DNA of 64,000 bases. It comes from Myxococcales bacterium (lineage in GTDB: Bacteria > Myxococcota_A > UBA9160 > SZUA-336). Shown piece after piece: positions 4,094-44,096 of the stretch (the first letter of the stretch is position 1; the number at the start of each line of letters is the position of its first letter). The notes below the pieces were generated by a model, which saw only the letters and a program-made list of their open reading frames with translations, had not been told where the DNA came from and searched no databases. Position numbers and translations under genes: made by a program. Location of the stretch: the NCBI GenBank assembly GCA_013215565.1, contig JABSQV010000005.1:37667-101666 (forward strand), read 5' to 3'.

Positions 4094-4768
4094 TCAGACG
4101 GACGAGTTCGGCGGCTTGGAGTCGAAGTGCCGCATTACGCCCAGGATCAGGTCCTCGCGCGTAATCCCAAAGTTGCGGCCGAAGTCGTGAAGCTGCTCGA
4201 GATTCCGGTAGAGCGCCGAGAGCAGTTCGGTCAGGGTCTGTTGGACCCCCTCGCCCGTGATCGCGATGGCCGGAATCGTCGGAATCCCCGTCGCCGCCCA
4301 GGACTCGCGGATATCGGCCAGCGGCTTCACGTCGTCGAGGTCTCGCTTGTTGAACTGCAGCACTTTCGGAAGCCGGTCGAAATCGACTCCGTTGGCCCGC
4401 AGATTCGACTCCAGGTCCCGATACGAGAAGGCGTTCCCGGCCGCCGCGCGGCGCTGCGAATCCGCAATGAAGGCGACCGCGTCGGCCCCTGCCAGCACCA
4501 CCTTCCGGGTGGCCCGATGCACCACCTGCCCGGGCACCGTGAAGAGCTTTAGCTTGATCCGGAAGTCCCCCTCCCCGAACTCGACCGGCAGGAAGTCGAA
4601 GTAGAGGGTCCGGTCGTTCTGGGTGTCGAGCGAGACCATCTCGCCCCGCGTGTGATGCGGCAACTGGGCGTGGATCTGCTGCAGGTTGGTCGTCTTTCCG
4701 GACAGAGCCGGGCCGTAGTAGACGATTTTGAGCGTGATCTCACGCTGTTCGAGATTGAGCTGTGGCAC
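4094..4768 (-). CDS. MglA-like small GTPase (gliding/polarity GTPase family)
   Basis: P-loop YYGPALSGKTTNL, FTVPGQV, FNKRDL; close to the Myxococcus MglA pattern. Confidence 0.85.
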   Translation of the reverse strand: MPQLNLEQREITLKIVYYGPALSGKTTNLQQIHAQLPHHTRGEMVSLDTQNDRTLYFDFLPVEFGEGDFRIKLKLFTVPGQVVHRATRKVVLAGADAVAFIADSQRRAAAGNAFSYRDLESNLRANGVDFDRLPKVLQFNKRDLDDVKPLADIRESWAATGIPTIPAIAITGEGVQQTLTELLSALYRNLEQLHDFGRNFGITREDLILGVMRHFDSKPPNSSV

Positions 4769-25827: not shown

Positions 25828-26742
25828 TCAGGAGGACGGCTCCGGGACTCGAACCGGATCGGATACCGGGTCCGGCGATTTCTGTCCGCCCGCCGGATCT
25901 TTGGGACTCTGCGCTGCCGATTCTTCGACCGGAAGAGCGGGCGCTTCGGGCTCTCGGATGTGGCCTGTGAGGCGCAGCAATCGCTGACGAAGCTGCGGAC
26001 CGTCGAGGGCTTCTTCGATTGTACCGGCGGCCACCAGCGAAATCCTTCCGGTCTCCTCTGAAACCACGATCGCGATCGCGTCCGTTTCCTCGGTAATCCC
26101 CACGGCTGCGCGGTGACGAGTCCCGAGGATTGCGGGGAGATTCGAACTGAGACCCAGCGGCAGGATGCAGCGAGCCGAGACCACGCGACCTTCGCGGATC
26201 ACGACCGCGCCGTCGTGCAGCGGCGAGTAGGGCAGGAACAGAGCGATCAGCAGGTCCCGGGTCATTGCCGCATCGATGTGCGTTCCGAGTTCGAGGTGAT
26301 CCTCCAGACTCACCTCCCTCTCCATGACCAGCAGGGCGCCGACCCGTCGCTGACCCAGGGACTGAACCGCCTGCACGATTTCCTCGATCGACTGGAGCTG
26401 CTGGCGAGGCGCCGTCCGGAGGAACCCTCGCCCCATCCGCGCCAGCGCGCGGCGGATGTCGTGCTGGAAGATGACGATGACGATCAACACGCCCCACCGA
26501 AGAAAGTTGTCGAGGATGAACCCCAGGGTGGCGAGTTCGAGTTGTTCGGCCAGGAGCCAGACCAAGACGACCGTGAGCACACCCAGCGACATCTGAGCCG
26601 CGCGCGTACCCTTGATCAGTAGCAGCAGCCAGTAGACGGCCAGGGAGACCAGCACGATGTCGAGCGTGTCCCAGACCGGATCGTAGTTGTCCGACAGGTT
26701 GTTCCAGGCATCGGCCAGCCATTGATAGATCCAGGTGATCAT
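25828..26742 (-). CDS. cdaA: Diadenylate cyclase CdaA
   Basis: Three N-terminal TM helices, FQHDIRRALARMGR, catalytic LHDGAVVI and GTRHRAAVG motifs. Confidence 0.92.
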   Translation of the reverse strand: MITWIYQWLADAWNNLSDNYDPVWDTLDIVLVSLAVYWLLLLIKGTRAAQMSLGVLTVVLVWLLAEQLELATLGFILDNFLRWGVLIVIVIFQHDIRRALARMGRGFLRTAPRQQLQSIEEIVQAVQSLGQRRVGALLVMEREVSLEDHLELGTHIDAAMTRDLLIALFLPYSPLHDGAVVIREGRVVSARCILPLGLSSNLPAILGTRHRAAVGITEETDAIAIVVSEETGRISLVAAGTIEEALDGPQLRQRLLRLTGHIREPEAPALPVEESAAQSPKDPAGGQKSPDPVSDPVRVPEPSS

Positions 26743-36019: not shown

Positions 36020-36096
36020 GGCGGTGTAGCTCAGTCGGTCAGAGCAGGCGGCTCATATCCGCCGTGTCGGGGGTTCGAGTCCCTCCACCGCCACCA
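36020..36096 (+). tRNA. tRNA with CAU anticodon (tRNA-Met most likely; tRNA-Ile2 not excluded)
   Basis: Cloverleaf by eye: GGCGGTG/CACCGCC acceptor, D-arm GCTC..GAGC, anticodon stem GGCGG-CTCATAT-CCGCC, T-arm GGGGG-TTCGAGT-CCCTC, encoded CCA. Confidence 0.93.
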
Positions 36097-36135: not shown

Positions 36136-37959
<1,824 letters not shown>

Positions 37960-38004: not shown

Positions 38005-38649
38005 TCAGACGCCGGTCGCGTCGTCGCCCCAGACGTACTTGTGCAGCTGCAGGTTCAGACGAACACGAAGCCGGTCCTCCAGAATCCAGGCCGCCAGATC
38101 GGAGGGTTCGAGTTCCCCGTGAACGGGCGAGAGGTGGATCGCAAATCGCCCCTCCAAGCGGCGTTCGCGCACCAGATCGCGTGACCACTCATAGTCCGCT
38201 CGATCCCAGACGACGAACTTGAGTTCGTCCGACTCGCGCAGGCGGTCGAGATTCTTGAAGTCGTTCCGCGATTGCATGCAGCTCCCCGGGGTCTTGAGGT
38301 CGAGGATGATGTGACAGCCGGGATCGAGTGTCGAGATGTCCTGGTGTCCACCGGTCTCGACCAGCACCTCGAATCCCGCCTCGAGGAGTGCTCGCACGAG
38401 TTCGGGCGCAGCCGCGTGAAGCAGAGGCTCCCCGCCGGTCAACTCGACCAACGGGATTCCAAAGGACTTCACGCGCTCGAGGATCTCATCCACGGACAGG
38501 GTGACGCCGCCGTGAAAAGCATGCGGCTCGTCGCAGTAGTTGCACCGAATGTCACAACCGGAACTGCGAACGAAGACGCAGGGCCAGCCCGCATAGGTCG
38601 ACTCCCCCTGGATCGAGCGGTAGATCTCCCGAATCAGCAGGCTCGCCAT
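38005..38649 (-). CDS. queE: 7-carboxy-7-deazaguanine synthase (radical SAM)
   Basis: IYRSIQGESTYAGWPCVFVRSSGCDIRCNYCDE, LTGGEPLL. Confidence 0.93.
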   Translation of the reverse strand: MASLLIREIYRSIQGESTYAGWPCVFVRSSGCDIRCNYCDEPHAFHGGVTLSVDEILERVKSFGIPLVELTGGEPLLHAAAPELVRALLEAGFEVLVETGGHQDISTLDPGCHIILDLKTPGSCMQSRNDFKNLDRLRESDELKFVVWDRADYEWSRDLVRERRLEGRFAIHLSPVHGELEPSDLAAWILEDRLRVRLNLQLHKYVWGDDATGV

Positions 38650-38658
38650 GGAACGGGT

Positions 38659-41286
38659 TCAGCCGCGGAGGAGCGACTTGTTGCGAACGATCTCTCCGAT
38701 CAAGATCTCGAAGCGTTCGGGGTGCAGCGGAAGTTCGTCGAGCGCGATCCGGCCCGAACGATCAGCTCCGTCTTTCGCGTGCGCCCACGAGATCCGAGAT
38801 GCCACGCGCTCGAGCACGCTCATCACGTTGAAGTGCCGCTTCTCCTCGGCACAGCCGAGCATCGCAACCGACCCTCCGTCCGACACCGAGAGAGAGAGCC
38901 GCGAGTCCGTCCGGAGCCGAAGACGGCGGGCGACCTCGCCCGCATCGAGCTTGTCCGGAACCACCGCGACGACCATCTGATACTCGCCGAAGTGCACCAC
39001 GCGAGGGTCGTTCTCTTCGAGCCAGCGCGCCTCGGCCTCATAGACCGAAGGAGCCTCGGGCAACTCGGTGGGCTTGCCCGAGAGCACGGGTCCGATGTCG
39101 GGACGACCGTCGGCAGAGGTTTCCGCAAGCCGCTTGATCAGGCCCGCGACACGGAATCCCCAGCGCTCCATGTCCTTCTCGGGCAGACGGCGCGCCGACA
39201 GGTCGAGCAGCTTCGTCGTGAAGCGGTTGCGGCGCTCCGTCACCTGCGAAACCGCTGCCAGCGGGCCGGCACCGTTGTCGACGATGAAGATCGAGTCGCG
39301 GCCCACTGCATCGCGCAACCGCTCCAGGTCCTCGATGGGCCACACGTGGTGATCGAACCACTGCAGGCGATTGCGAAACACCTCGGCTGCCTCGATCGTC
39401 TCCCGCGCGACCGGTTCGGCCGTAAATCCGACGACCAGAAGATCCGCGTTCTCGCCGACGTCAGTCGCCCGGCCCTTGAGGAAGTCCAGCAGGGCTTCCT
39501 GCGCGCAGACCCAGAAGGCCTCGATGCTGCGCCGCTCGCGGGCGAGGACCAGCGCCGCGAGCACGGCATCCGGGTCGTTCCGCACCACGATCGCGGCGCG
39601 AGCGCGCCGCACCGGGCGCTCGGGCGCGGCCTCGAGCGGCTCCTCGAGGGCCTCCGGCTCCTCGGCCGGAACCTCGGCCAGCGTCGCTTCCACCTCCGCA
39701 TCGAGCGGATCCGGCGAGACCGCGGCCGGATCGAGTCGAGCCTGCTCTGCCGGCTCGAGGTCCGGGGCAGGCGTGGTCTCCGCGCCGGCTTCGGGCTCCG
39801 CGCCGAGTTCGGCCTGCGCCCCGGCCTCCGCAACCGGGGCCTCTTCGGGAACCTCGAGCTCCCGGGACTCCGGCTGCACGTCCTCCTCTACCGGCCGGGT
39901 TTCCGGGCCCGCCGCGCCGCGCCCACGGCCGCGACCACGCCGCCGACGCGGGCGCTCGGACGGTTCCGCAGGGGATTCCGGGGCCGCTTCTGCCTCCGCG
40001 ACTTCGGGGGCCGGCTGGTCGTCCGAGCGGCTGCGTCTCGATCCACGCCGCGGCCGCTCCCGATCCGGGCTCTCGGACTCTCGATCTCGAGCTTCGATCG
40101 GCCGCTCCCGATCCGGGCTCTCGGGCTCTCGGTCTCGAGCTTCGAGCGGCCGCTCTGCGGCGGCCGATCGTCCGCGGCGTCGACGTGAGCGGCCTCCCTC
40201 GCGGCCCGACTTCTCGGGCTCCGCACCCGCCGCCGGACCCGAACGCGTCAAGTGTTCGACGCTCACGCCGAGCGAGTCGAGCACGCTGGCCGCTCGTGCC
40301 TCCACCTGCTCCGCCGCAATACACACACGCGGCGCACCCCGGGCCTCGGGCGCCCAGAGTTCACGCTGCTCCTCGAACAGCGACAGGGCGGCGACCACCG
40401 ACGGCACGTCGGAAAGGGCAAACCCGTCTCGAAGCAGTCCCAGTACGGGCTGCGCGGCGGCATCGATCCCGACCCAGTCGATCGGATCGGAACCTTCCGA
40501 ATTCCAGGGCAGCCAGCGACCGACTACGCGGACCCCGGCCGCGGTCGCGACCGCATCGATGGCGGCTGCGCGCTGCGCTTCGACACGATCGAGCAGCCGC
40601 GGGTCCTGCGAGAGTTCGATAACGGTATCGTGCATCTCTGGCCCGGTACTCGGAAAATTCGCGGCCGTCACCTCGAAGCGGCGCTTGCGCGCCACCGTGA
40701 CCTCGATCGACGCACCCTCGCCGGCGGGGAGCGCACGCAGCGCCGGGATTCCGCGCAGAAAGACCACCGCGCCCCCGGGCGCATGCCGCACGGCCGCGTC
40801 ACCCGCGACCGCGGCCGCACCTTCGAGGACCCGCAGAGCCCGATCGAAAACCGAACGCGCGGGCGCACCGGCAGGCCGCGGACCGGAGCCGGCCGGGACC
40901 GTCTCCTGCACAAATAGGTCCGGAGCACCGTCCGCCAGTGCAGGGAACGCGACCAGCCGTACGGGCGGACCGACCCCGCCGGGAGCCTCGGCCGCGCGTC
41001 GAGTGGCCGGCCCGATCAAGGGCGCCGCGACGATCACCTCAGCCAGCGCGGTCCCGGGAGGCGCGAGCGCTGCCGCAACTGGCGCCCAGCCCACCAGGTC
41101 CGGCCCATCCCGATTCGCGACCACGAGCGCCACCGGGCGCCCACCCCAGGCCGTGGCGGTCCCGAGTTCCAGGCCATTCGGGAGCCCGGGAATGCGCTCC
41201 AGACTCCGCACATCCTGAAGCCCGAGTGCCCGGAGCCCCCCCAGGCGGCCCAGCAGACGCCCGGAGCCCCTCCGGAACCCCCGCAT
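38659..41286 (-). CDS. Large multidomain protein: uncharacterised N-terminal domain, Arg/Glu/Pro-rich linker, C-terminal DHH-phosphoesterase-like domain
   Basis: C-terminal VVRNDPDAVLAALVLARERR...LQWFDHHVWPIEDLE; linker RSRRRRGRSAAAERPLEARDREPESPDRERP...RPRRRRGRGRGRGAAG. ATG at 41286 preferred. Confidence 0.7.
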   Translation of the reverse strand: MRGFRRGSGRLLGRLGGLRALGLQDVRSLERIPGLPNGLELGTATAWGGRPVALVVANRDGPDLVGWAPVAAALAPPGTALAEVIVAAPLIGPATRRAAEAPGGVGPPVRLVAFPALADGAPDLFVQETVPAGSGPRPAGAPARSVFDRALRVLEGAAAVAGDAAVRHAPGGAVVFLRGIPALRALPAGEGASIEVTVARKRRFEVTAANFPSTGPEMHDTVIELSQDPRLLDRVEAQRAAAIDAVATAAGVRVVGRWLPWNSEGSDPIDWVGIDAAAQPVLGLLRDGFALSDVPSVVAALSLFEEQRELWAPEARGAPRVCIAAEQVEARAASVLDSLGVSVEHLTRSGPAAGAEPEKSGREGGRSRRRRGRSAAAERPLEARDREPESPDRERPIEARDRESESPDRERPRRGSRRSRSDDQPAPEVAEAEAAPESPAEPSERPRRRRGRGRGRGAAGPETRPVEEDVQPESRELEVPEEAPVAEAGAQAELGAEPEAGAETTPAPDLEPAEQARLDPAAVSPDPLDAEVEATLAEVPAEEPEALEEPLEAAPERPVRRARAAIVVRNDPDAVLAALVLARERRSIEAFWVCAQEALLDFLKGRATDVGENADLLVVGFTAEPVARETIEAAEVFRNRLQWFDHHVWPIEDLERLRDAVGRDSIFIVDNGAGPLAAVSQVTERRNRFTTKLLDLSARRLPEKDMERWGFRVAGLIKRLAETSADGRPDIGPVLSGKPTELPEAPSVYEAEARWLEENDPRVVHFGEYQMVVAVVPDKLDAGEVARRLRLRTDSRLSLSVSDGGSVAMLGCAEEKRHFNVMSVLERVASRISWAHAKDGADRSGRIALDELPLHPERFEILIGEIVRNKSLLRG
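40051..40146. repeat. Two tandem 48-bp units inside the linker coding region (16-aa repeat LEARDREPESPDRERP / IEARDRESESPDRERP)
   Basis: cggccgctcccgatccgggctctcgg(a/g)ctctcg(a/g)tctcgagcttcga(t/g) repeated at 40051 and 40099, followed by a partial third copy. Confidence 0.9.
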
Positions 41287-41427: not shown

Positions 41428-42546
41428 TCAGAGACCCGGGAGGATCAGACCGCCCTCGCTGCGCTCGGGCTCGGGGGCCCGCGCGAGCCCGAGCGCGGAC
41501 TCGAACAGAAAGCGGAGCAGCGGCACCTCGAGGGGAGTTTCGCTCCCCTGCACGCGATCCGTCAGGCAGAGCGCGGCCAGGGCTCCCTCTTCATCGTCGC
41601 CCTCCAGCAGGCCCCAGGCAGACTCCTCCAGACGTCGAGCGATTCGCGCTCGCGTCTCGGGGTCGAAGGCCCGCTCCGCGTGGCGGGCCAGCAGCGTCCT
41701 CTCCCGCTCTCGCTGCTGCGGCTCGGAGAGAACCAGGACACCGTCTCGGACCGAAGCGAGTTCGTGCTGCGCGGCCTCGACGACGGACGTCGCGGGCAGC
41801 CAGGCTGCGAGCCGTCCGCGCTCGAAGCGCACGCGCAGCGCACGCTCGGCGCTGGATCCCGAAAGTTCGCGCCCCGACAGGCGCTCTCGGGCGAGTTCGC
41901 CGGGTACGGGCCCGCCCGCCCGCGCACCCGCGAGCAACTCGGTCAGCAGCACGGGATCCACGCCGGGCGCTACACCCCCCGCCCCGGGCCCTGCCTCTAC
42001 CCGCGCAAACCCCGCGATCAGGGCCCGCGCTCCGCCCGCCGGAATCTCGAACACCCCGTCCCGGCTTCGCAACTCCCGCTCGAAACCGCGCGCTTCCCGG
42101 CGGCGTGCCTCGAAGCGACCGACCTGGAGTACGCCGCGGACGTCGGACACCAACACCTCGTACACGCGCGTCTCGCCGCGGACGGGGACCAGCAGAAACA
42201 GGAGTCGCTGCCCACCGGGATCGATGAACGTCGCGAAGGCACGCTCCGCCTCTCTCGCGATCGGGCGCAAACCCGGCACGGAGCCGGCCCGAAGCGCGCT
42301 CCCGACGTCCACGCCGTGACTGCGCAGGCGGTGGAGCATCCGGCGCACCCGCTTGCGGCGCACGCGATCCGCTGCCTGTTCTGCGGCCCGGAGCGCCGGA
42401 ACTGCCTCGACCCCGCAGGCGCCGAGTTCTTCGAGCGCTGCAGCGAAGCGCTCGTCATCGAGTTCGAGGAGCAACCCGCCAAGCGACCCACCGACGGCCG
42501 AGAGCCAGGACTCGATGCTGTCTTCGGCGGGCAACCGCGCGCGCAC
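41428..42546 (-). CDS. Uncharacterised protein
   Basis: Long ORF with coherent low-shadow composition between the DHH-like gene and dgt; no family recognised. Confidence 0.65.
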   Translation of the reverse strand: MRARLPAEDSIESWLSAVGGSLGGLLLELDDERFAAALEELGACGVEAVPALRAAEQAADRVRRKRVRRMLHRLRSHGVDVGSALRAGSVPGLRPIAREAERAFATFIDPGGQRLLFLLVPVRGETRVYEVLVSDVRGVLQVGRFEARRREARGFERELRSRDGVFEIPAGGARALIAGFARVEAGPGAGGVAPGVDPVLLTELLAGARAGGPVPGELARERLSGRELSGSSAERALRVRFERGRLAAWLPATSVVEAAQHELASVRDGVLVLSEPQQRERERTLLARHAERAFDPETRARIARRLEESAWGLLEGDDEEGALAALCLTDRVQGSETPLEVPLLRFLFESALGLARAPEPERSEGGLILPGL

Positions 42547-42595: not shown

Positions 42596-43750
42596 CTAGA
42601 CCCGCGCGTGCGGATCGAAGAGCTTGCGGTGCTCGTCCATCGCGAAGCGGTCGGTCATGCCGGCCAGGTAGTCGGCAATCGCGCGCGGCTCCAGTTCTCG
42701 GGAACGACCGGCTCGCACACTCGGCGGAAGTTGCGCCGGTTGTTCACGATACGCCTCCCACAGATCGCGCAGGATCCGCTCGGCCTTGGCACCCATGCGT
42801 ACGGCCAGGTAGTGATGGTACAGCTCCCGTCGCAGGAACGACGCGAGTTCACGTACCTGCTCCGCGACCTCGTCCGAGAAGCCGACGCAGGGCTCGGGCG
42901 CGTCTCGCACCTCCGCGGCGGACTTCGCTCCGAGCTCGCGCAGGCGCTCTTCGGTCGCCACGATCAGGTCGCTCGCAAGCTGATCGATCAGGCTCACGAT
43001 CGCGCGCGCGCGCAGCACCCTCGGTTCTCGCGCTCCGCTCGCGCGTGCCTGATCGCACGCGTGGCTCCAGAGTTCCACCTGGCCGAGCGCTTCCTGCTCG
43101 AGCAGCCCCGAGCGTAGCCCATCATCGATGTCGTGGTTGTGGTACGCGATCTCGTCGGCGGCATCCGCAATCTGCGCTTCGAGACCGGGCGAGGCTCCGA
43201 GCTCTGGAAGAGGGACGGGATGCAAGTCGCGCGGGAACCCAGCTCCGTGTTTCAGGATGCCCGCCCGGGCCTCGTGCGTGAGATTCAGACCCGGGTAAGC
43301 AGGATGGCGGGCCTCGAGCACATCGACGATCCGAAGGCTCTGGCGGTTGTGCTCGAAGCCTCCGTGGTCGCGCATCAGCCGGTGGAGTGCAGTCTGACCG
43401 GCGTGTCCGAAGGGCGTGTGCCCCAGGTCGTGCGCGAGTACGATCGCCTCGCAGAGATCCTCGTTTGCCCCCAGTGCACGGGAAATGGTGCGCGCGATCT
43501 GGGCCACCTCGAGCGTATGCGTCAGGCGATTGCGGAAGTGATCGCCCTCGTGGTGAACGAAGACCTGCGTCTTGTACTGAAGGCGCCGAAACGAGGTGGA
43601 ATGGATCACGCGGTCCCGGTCGCGCTGGAAGGCCGTGCGGTAGGGGTGAGGCTCCTCCGCGTACAGACGGCCGGAGGAGTCGCCGGCTCGCATTCCCCAC
43701 GGGCCGAGGCGACCCGACTCTTCTCGCTCGAGCACCTCGCGCAGACGCAT
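42596..43750 (-). CDS. dgt: dGTPase-like HD-domain deoxynucleoside triphosphate triphosphohydrolase
   Basis: STSFRRLQYKTQVFVHHEGDHFRNRLTHTLEVAQIAR, AHDLGHTPFGHAGQTAL. Confidence 0.92.
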   Translation of the reverse strand: MRLREVLEREESGRLGPWGMRAGDSSGRLYAEEPHPYRTAFQRDRDRVIHSTSFRRLQYKTQVFVHHEGDHFRNRLTHTLEVAQIARTISRALGANEDLCEAIVLAHDLGHTPFGHAGQTALHRLMRDHGGFEHNRQSLRIVDVLEARHPAYPGLNLTHEARAGILKHGAGFPRDLHPVPLPELGASPGLEAQIADAADEIAYHNHDIDDGLRSGLLEQEALGQVELWSHACDQARASGAREPRVLRARAIVSLIDQLASDLIVATEERLRELGAKSAAEVRDAPEPCVGFSDEVAEQVRELASFLRRELYHHYLAVRMGAKAERILRDLWEAYREQPAQLPPSVRAGRSRELEPRAIADYLAGMTDRFAMDEHRKLFDPHARV

Positions 43751-43754
43751 CCGA

Positions 43755-44096
43755 CTACTCGCGCGTCTTCTGATCAATCAGCGAGTCCAGCGCTCCCTGC
43801 TCGTCCGCCGAGATCCGCTCCCTGAGGCCTGCCTGTTTCGGTGGACCGGCTCCGACGGGAGGAGGAAGCCCGTCCGCGGGGAACTCGGCCCTCGGAAGTT
43901 CCTCGCGGAGTTCCTCGCGGAGTTCCTCGGCCAGGCGGTCGGCAATCCGAACGCCTCGACTGCGAACCACGGCCGCGATCTCCTCACCCGACCGGATCCG
44001 CAAAGCCAGCGTCCGAGTCTGCTTGTCCCACGCGAGATCCACCATGATGAACGCGGCCGCGCCGACGAGCACGATGAGGAGTAGCCGAACAAACAT
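43755..44096 (-). CDS. Small membrane-anchored hypothetical protein
   Basis: N-terminal TM MFVRLLLIVLVGAAAFIMVDLAW; charged EELREELREELP repeat; abuts dgt. Confidence 0.55.
   Translation of the reverse strand: MFVRLLLIVLVGAAAFIMVDLAWDKQTRTLALRIRSGEEIAAVVRSRGVRIADRLAEELREELREELPRAEFPADGLPPPVGAGPPKQAGLRERISADEQGALDSLIDQKTRE

Follow-up and report, generated by a model that had tools for sequence, protein, structure and literature searches.

Cdc45, archaeal RecJ and other comparable proteins

Among the described systems, the functionally nearest to the protein analysed here appear to be Cdc45 and the inactivated archaeal RecJ proteins (RecJdbd; arCOG00428/00432), which share with it the DHH-DHHA1 fold, the loss of metal ligands including the motif II aspartate, and retention throughout a lineage. 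In drRecJ, this aspartate (Asp135) bridges both metals, and Cdc45 is without Asp79, Asp135 and His159 (PMC4846377); inactivated RecJ homologues have been proposed as structural replication components in archaea (PMC3307487). However, neither a fused EndoMS domain nor an RG linker has been reported for Cdc45 or RecJdbd, which are eukaryotic or archaeal, and their MCM/GINS context is absent from the present locus, where dgt and queE are found instead.

Alternatively, the protein can be compared with enzymes that resemble one or another of its parts. EndoMS/NucS has a beta domain and a RecB-like nuclease fold that correspond, at low TM-scores, to residues ~146–348, and the PD-(D/E)XK aspartate is conserved; moreover, a short E-x-S-L-F peptide of the sister families resembles the NucS clamp motif, although the order to which the source genome belongs is without it. 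The differences are that the catalytic Glu and Lys are lost, that a DHH unit is fused, and that Pfam NucS_C gives no score. Bacterial RecJ, NrnA and GdpP have the same order of DHH and then DHHA1 domains, as well as the DHH triad that most members of the family keep, whereas the motif II Asp, the GGGH motif and (in the window's order) the motif I His are missing from the family, and Pfam DHH is weak or absent in every member scanned; an intact DHH metal site, as in the c-di-AMP phosphodiesterase GdpP, was not found. The scaffold region of RNase E is similar in its long, R/E/P-rich and presumed disordered stretch, which includes RG patches and a short conserved peptide, but the present protein has no catalytic RNase E/G domain, and its linker is central between two folded units. 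The reading favoured here, at a probability of roughly 0.5, is that of a non-enzymatic nucleic-acid scaffold, made of two dead nuclease-like domains on an RG-rich tether, in a replication or repair setting.

A core gene of an uncultured class

The window, i.e., the whole stretch of 64,000 nucleotides that was analysed, carries the gene at 38659..41286 on the minus strand, and all of the parts of it located below lie on that strand. It runs from an ATG start through 875 aa to a stop, begins with the short basic N-terminus MRGFRRGSGR, for which homologues have a comparable basic tail (e.g., MMRRRFGRRRR), and contains RNDPDAVLAALVLA, LQWFDHH and RPRRRRGRGRGRGAAG. A profile of the C-terminal domain matches in 87 of the 91 genomes of the class, nearly always in single copy, and in 42 of the 43 that are of high quality; of the 288 genomes sampled from the phylum's other classes, none gives a match. 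The class homologues are nearly always free of internal stops and form open frames of ~900–1000 aa where the contigs allow. This almost class-wide presence of one stop-free copy identifies 38659..41286 as a real gene rather than a chance open reading frame. The three named relatives are Deltaproteobacteria MAGs. Searches of the window protein against Pfam, NCBIfam and PDB sequences returned no match, a scan of viral contigs found no relatives of it, and no published account of an architecture with EndoMS-like region, linker and DHH domain was found in a limited literature search.

Two nuclease-like folds

The initial annotation had described the C-terminus as DHH-phosphoesterase-like, and the predicted structure agrees. 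Residues 559–875 (38662..39612) are assigned to DHH and DHHA1 domains from the AF2 model and Foldseek, together with weak Pfam DHH matches in homologues; the model, which like that of the N-terminal half was built from a 4-sequence alignment, has the DHH-DHHA1 fold at modest confidence (pLDDT 57). In a Foldseek search of the PDB, all 21 matches at E ≤ 0.001 belong to the DHH superfamily (E 2.9e-7 to 9.6e-4), for instance NrnA-like 6mtz, PAP phosphatase 8a8k, RecJ-Cdc45 7bjq and PF0399, with RecJ, type II pyrophosphatase and Cdc45 also represented. The matches that follow these 21 are AlaRS C-Ala domains, known relatives of DHHA1 (PMC3307487); on these matches residues 762–875 (38662..39003), which have GADR at the GGGH position, are assigned to a DHHA1 (C-Ala-like) domain. 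Along the strands of the model, motif I follows strand 1, G620 follows strand 3 and the DHH triad follows strand 4, a placement that has also been described for drRecJ (PMC4846377). The TM-scores of the C- and N-terminal models to their matches are low (0.2–0.46). Of the 41 homologues, 7 have a weak Pfam DHH match, the best at E 9.5e-4, and the PF01368 cut-off is not reached, with no match for the window protein and 21.9 bits versus 28.1 for the copy in genome G011. Profile searches of the PDB with either domain gave chance-level matches only, such as uS4 ribosomal proteins and myoglobin.

The N-terminus, left unplaced in the initial annotation, now looks EndoMS/NucS-like by AF2 and Foldseek. 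The model of residues 1–348 reached a pLDDT of 76, which is better than that of the C-terminal domain, and its top five PDB matches are all EndoMS/NucS chains (5gke, 2vld and 5gkj; E 5.6e-5 to 2.2e-3, probability 0.91–1.0), so that in the model this half most resembles the mismatch endonuclease EndoMS/NucS. The EndoMS/NucS-like region, with a dead PD-(D/E)XK site as judged from Foldseek, column counts and profile alignment, spans residues 146–348 (40243..40851), a range assigned from the secondary structure of the model, in which a beta domain (residues 146–206) precedes a PD-(D/E)XK-type core (residues 235–346). The PD-(D/E)XK aspartate, D270, is kept in 18 of 19 homologues; the catalytic Glu position holds A, L or V in all 19 (L284 in the window copy), the catalytic Lys position holds Arg in all 19 (R286), and the domain thus appears catalytically dead.

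Pfam NucS_C does not match the N-terminal half even at E = 10, and what it does match in other genomes of the class are distinct proteins. One of them, found in a single genome (locus L074, 763–1833, minus strand; 357 aa), has an intact NucS_C signature (DLLGVDSDGRLVVYELKKG) and passes the NucS_C cut-off at 29.7 bits; a profile alignment pairs this DLLGVDSDGRLVVYELKKG with DWVGIDAAAQPVLGLLRDG of the N-terminal half in the expected register (P = 0.0025). Open reading frames of ~250 aa near the centre of loci L073 and L075–L080 combine a zinc-ribbon N-terminus with a NucS_C-like domain in which E-x-K looks lost (GKIDLLARDQSAGWVVVMVAEP), and are possibly another pseudonuclease family; they were considered as relatives of the N-terminal half, a relationship that the comparison left unsupported (P = 0.08). 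Ahead of the EndoMS-like region, the AF2 model and profile comparison delimit a beta-beta-alpha-beta-alpha-beta unit at residues 23–113 (40948..41220). Its profile comparison with residues 250–350 gave P = 0.0023, whereas eight control comparisons against segments of the C-terminal domain gave 0.066–0.45, and as a weak lead the unit is possibly a duplicated PD-(D/E)XK half-core.

The linker and its conserved peptide

The two halves are joined by an R/E/A/P low-complexity linker at residues 349–558 (about 346–560; 39613..40242), presumed disordered from its composition and running charge. Both properties sustain the earlier description of about 200 R/E/P-rich, RNase E-like residues with RG stretches: the 215 aa at about residues 346–560 include 43 E, 36 A, 35 R and 31 P, with 54 acidic and 36 basic residues, and basic RG stretches are followed by acidic ones. 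The RG-rich patch RPRRRRGRGRGRGAAG, defined by sequence and composition, occupies residues 445–460 (39907..39954). The linker DNA holds short tandem repeats of 18–48 bp, of which a 48 bp repeat at 40050–40155 (2.2 copies, 93% match) suggests a recent, repeat-driven change of linker length.

In all 29 readable linkers from outside the window's order, F(E/D)EVSLFDL occurs at an invariant place, between two R-rich blocks and with the consensus R-F-[E/D]-E-V-S-L-F-D-L-D-D and an unvarying Ser. Of these 29 linkers, 17 fit a strict clamp-type pattern, versus 0.23% of shuffled linkers. The peptide resembles the sliding-clamp motif of actinobacterial NucS, whose DnaN-binding motif is given in a review as [E/K]-[L/Y]-[T/R]-L-F (PMC8228993). 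Canonical clamp motifs contain a Gln at a position that is Glu in the peptide. In the window's own order the peptide is present in none of 10 linkers and has been lost; the clamp idea therefore applies to the family and not directly to the window copy.

The composition of the linker and its RG patches would equally suit an RNA-side scaffold, i.e., an RNase E-like organiser in which the linker and DHHA1 bind RNA while the dead domains dock RNA or protein, and the position of the peptide between two basic patches is like that of RNase E microdomains. That the linker fits an RNA role just as well counts against a DNA reading. On the other hand, Pfam and NCBIfam detect no RNase E/G-type domain in the 875-aa protein, the EndoMS resemblance and the NucS-type peptide favour DNA, and the closest known inactivated DHH proteins work in DNA replication; the RNA-side scaffold is accordingly rated a credible but unlikely explanation.

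Gene neighbourhood

Across the loci compared, a conserved same-strand cluster comprises dgt, a gene for a protein of 370–400 aa, the 875-aa gene and queE, and the dgt-X-queE order is kept in most of them. The queE-like radical SAM gene (38005..38649, minus strand) lies directly downstream after a gap of 9 bp, and in locus L002 queE overlaps the homologue by 8 bp. Between dgt and the 875-aa gene, the window has an uncharacterised gene of 372 aa (41428..42546, minus strand) that gives no Pfam match; 11 of the compared loci have a related-looking family (~380–400 aa, motif LPKAGRKALRRALHRLRSQG) at the corresponding place, and the 372-aa window protein did not cluster with it by BLAST. The dgt-like HD dNTPase gene (42596..43777, minus strand; Pfam HD and HD_assoc) is a neighbour in nearly all loci compared, and replication genes are absent from this context. 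Elsewhere in the window, a tRNA-Met gene (36020–36096, plus strand) stands directly upstream of thiC (36187–37959), and a small GTPase at 4094–4768 (minus strand) looks by eye like MglA of gliding and polarity systems.

A scaffold that works together with Dgt and QueE in dNTP or 7-deazaguanine metabolism would account for the retained gene order and for a queE that closely follows or overlaps the gene; nevertheless, dgt and queE are ordinary housekeeping genes and the folds of the protein resemble nucleic-acid enzymes, which leaves such a metabolic scaffold distinctly unlikely.

Loss of the DHH metal site

The absence of the motif I His and the motif II Asp, both noticed in the initial annotation, extends through the whole order, and that of the motif II Asp through the whole class. 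G620 (39427..39429), which follows model strand 56–61 at the end of the third DHH strand, occupies the motif II Asp position and is Gly in all 41 homologues. In motif I, the His is absent from 10 of 10 sequences of the window's order (R569 in the window copy); the window copy keeps D-x-D (D571, D573), and outside the order 17 of 31 sequences have another residue for the second Asp, which is Glu in 3 of the 17. The DHH triad at the end of the fourth strand (residues 645–647; 39346..39354) is intact in the window copy, with D in 41/41, the first H in 37/41 and the second H in 38/41 homologues, and is altered in 5 of the 41 (DRG, DRQ, DRH, DHQ or DNH). The GGGH motif of DHHA1, lost in the window copy, reads mostly x-D-H in other orders. 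Invariant instead are W643, D645, W649, E652, D653, R686, R688, D705, W709, G710, D842 and R846. Judged from these residues, the DHH metal site is dead, and because metal ligands have been lost while other residues are invariant, the C-terminal domain is probably maintained for a task that does not involve two-metal hydrolysis. That both domains have lost catalysis is the best-supported outcome of the analysis and is considered very probable; since the catalytic features of both enzyme families were checked and found missing, the protein is by membership neither a DHH phosphoesterase nor an EndoMS.

An active enzyme with a rearranged metal site, hydrolysing a nucleotide or nanoRNA via D645, H646/H647, D705 and others, would draw on the invariance of D645 and D705, on the mostly kept His residues and on the D-x-D of the window copy. 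Such an enzyme is very unlikely in view of the class-wide Gly in motif II, the loss of GGGH, the frequent replacement of the second Asp of motif I outside the order (14 of 31 even if Glu is accepted) and the altered DHH of some homologues; alanine mutants of such metal ligands are almost completely inactive in drRecJ (PMC4846377).

DHH proteins and c-di-AMP enzymes of the class

Outside the class, 271 of 288 genomes have a canonical Pfam DHH match (E ≤ 0.001), whereas within it such a match occurs in 19 of 91, of which 16 exceed the Pfam cut-off; this contrast of presence and absence among MAGs is to be read as a correlation. Of the three weaker matches in the class, at least one (in G011) is the homologue of the 875-aa protein itself, and the other class matches reach only ~35–54 bits, whereas RecJ-sized matches in outside genomes score 80–100 bits at best. 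Largely without RecJ-like proteins, the class almost universally carries a dead DHH relative. Some genomes of the class encode another DHH protein (loci L063, 988–2397, and L067, 766–2451), which is extended at its N-terminus by a segment starting RIIICDGAESARLWSRIG; it looks unlike RecJ and may be a Rossmann-DHH protein.

The window does encode CdaA (25828–26742; Pfam DAC, 8.7e-40), as stated at the outset, and the accompanying remark that no GdpP-like phosphodiesterase was seen holds for the window but not as a gap in the genome, since another contig (C13) carries a 7TMR-HD protein that we take to be of the PgpH kind, a candidate c-di-AMP phosphodiesterase; there is therefore no missing phosphodiesterase to supply, and the chief ground for a c-di-AMP role falls away. 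Although CdaA shares the window and the DHH proteins include GdpP and NrnA-type c-di-AMP enzymes, a phosphodiesterase or sensor for c-di-AMP or (di)nucleotides that works with CdaA is highly improbable, given the degenerate active site, the PgpH-type candidate, on the finding of which the phosphodiesterase role was set aside, and a cdaA gene ~12 kb away and outside the cluster; binding or sensing is more conceivable than hydrolysis. The earlier suggestion of a part in nucleotide or c-di-AMP turnover is not supported.

A proposed scaffold in replication or repair

In the favoured non-enzymatic scaffold, two noncatalytic domains, one EndoMS/NucS-like and the other a DHH-DHHA1 domain of the RecJ/Cdc45 type, would be joined by a disordered RG-rich and acidic tether. 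Both folded units would be expected to bind DNA, with the DHHA1/C-Ala part binding ssDNA or RNA, and the tether would bind nucleic acid and dock a partner via a short peptide, which is clamp-motif-like in most of the class. Like Cdc45, the scaffold would probably work in replication or repair, here within a class mostly without canonical DHH nucleases. Nucleic-acid binding, clamp docking, the replication or repair role and the existence of a partner are what we infer for the protein from computed features, namely the gene and its single class-wide copy, the domain resemblances, the catalytic loss, the conserved peptide and the synteny. Taken by itself, a DNA replication or repair setting has about even odds, and an RNA setting is unlikely. 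Several points weigh against a replication or repair scaffold: the dgt/queE context, the peptide missing from the window's own order, its Glu in place of the canonical Gln, the models built from 4 sequences with a pLDDT of 57 for the C-terminal one, the low TM-scores and the lack of a Pfam NucS_C match for the N-terminal half. A bolder version, in which the protein is a class-defining bacterial counterpart of Cdc45, a clamp-tethered scaffold of dead EndoMS and dead DHH domains that assumed a structural part in replication or repair upon the loss of RecJ from the class, is speculative and rather unlikely.

The 875-aa protein is a single-copy core gene product of a whole class of uncultured bacteria, without a Pfam or NCBIfam name, and the analysis provides first annotations for a long open frame that at least 87 genomes carry. 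It unites two nuclease folds that are without active sites and yet strongly conserved. If the scaffold reading is true, the protein would be a bacterial parallel to Cdc45 and would offer a direct way into resection, mismatch repair or replication in a lineage largely without canonical DHH nucleases.
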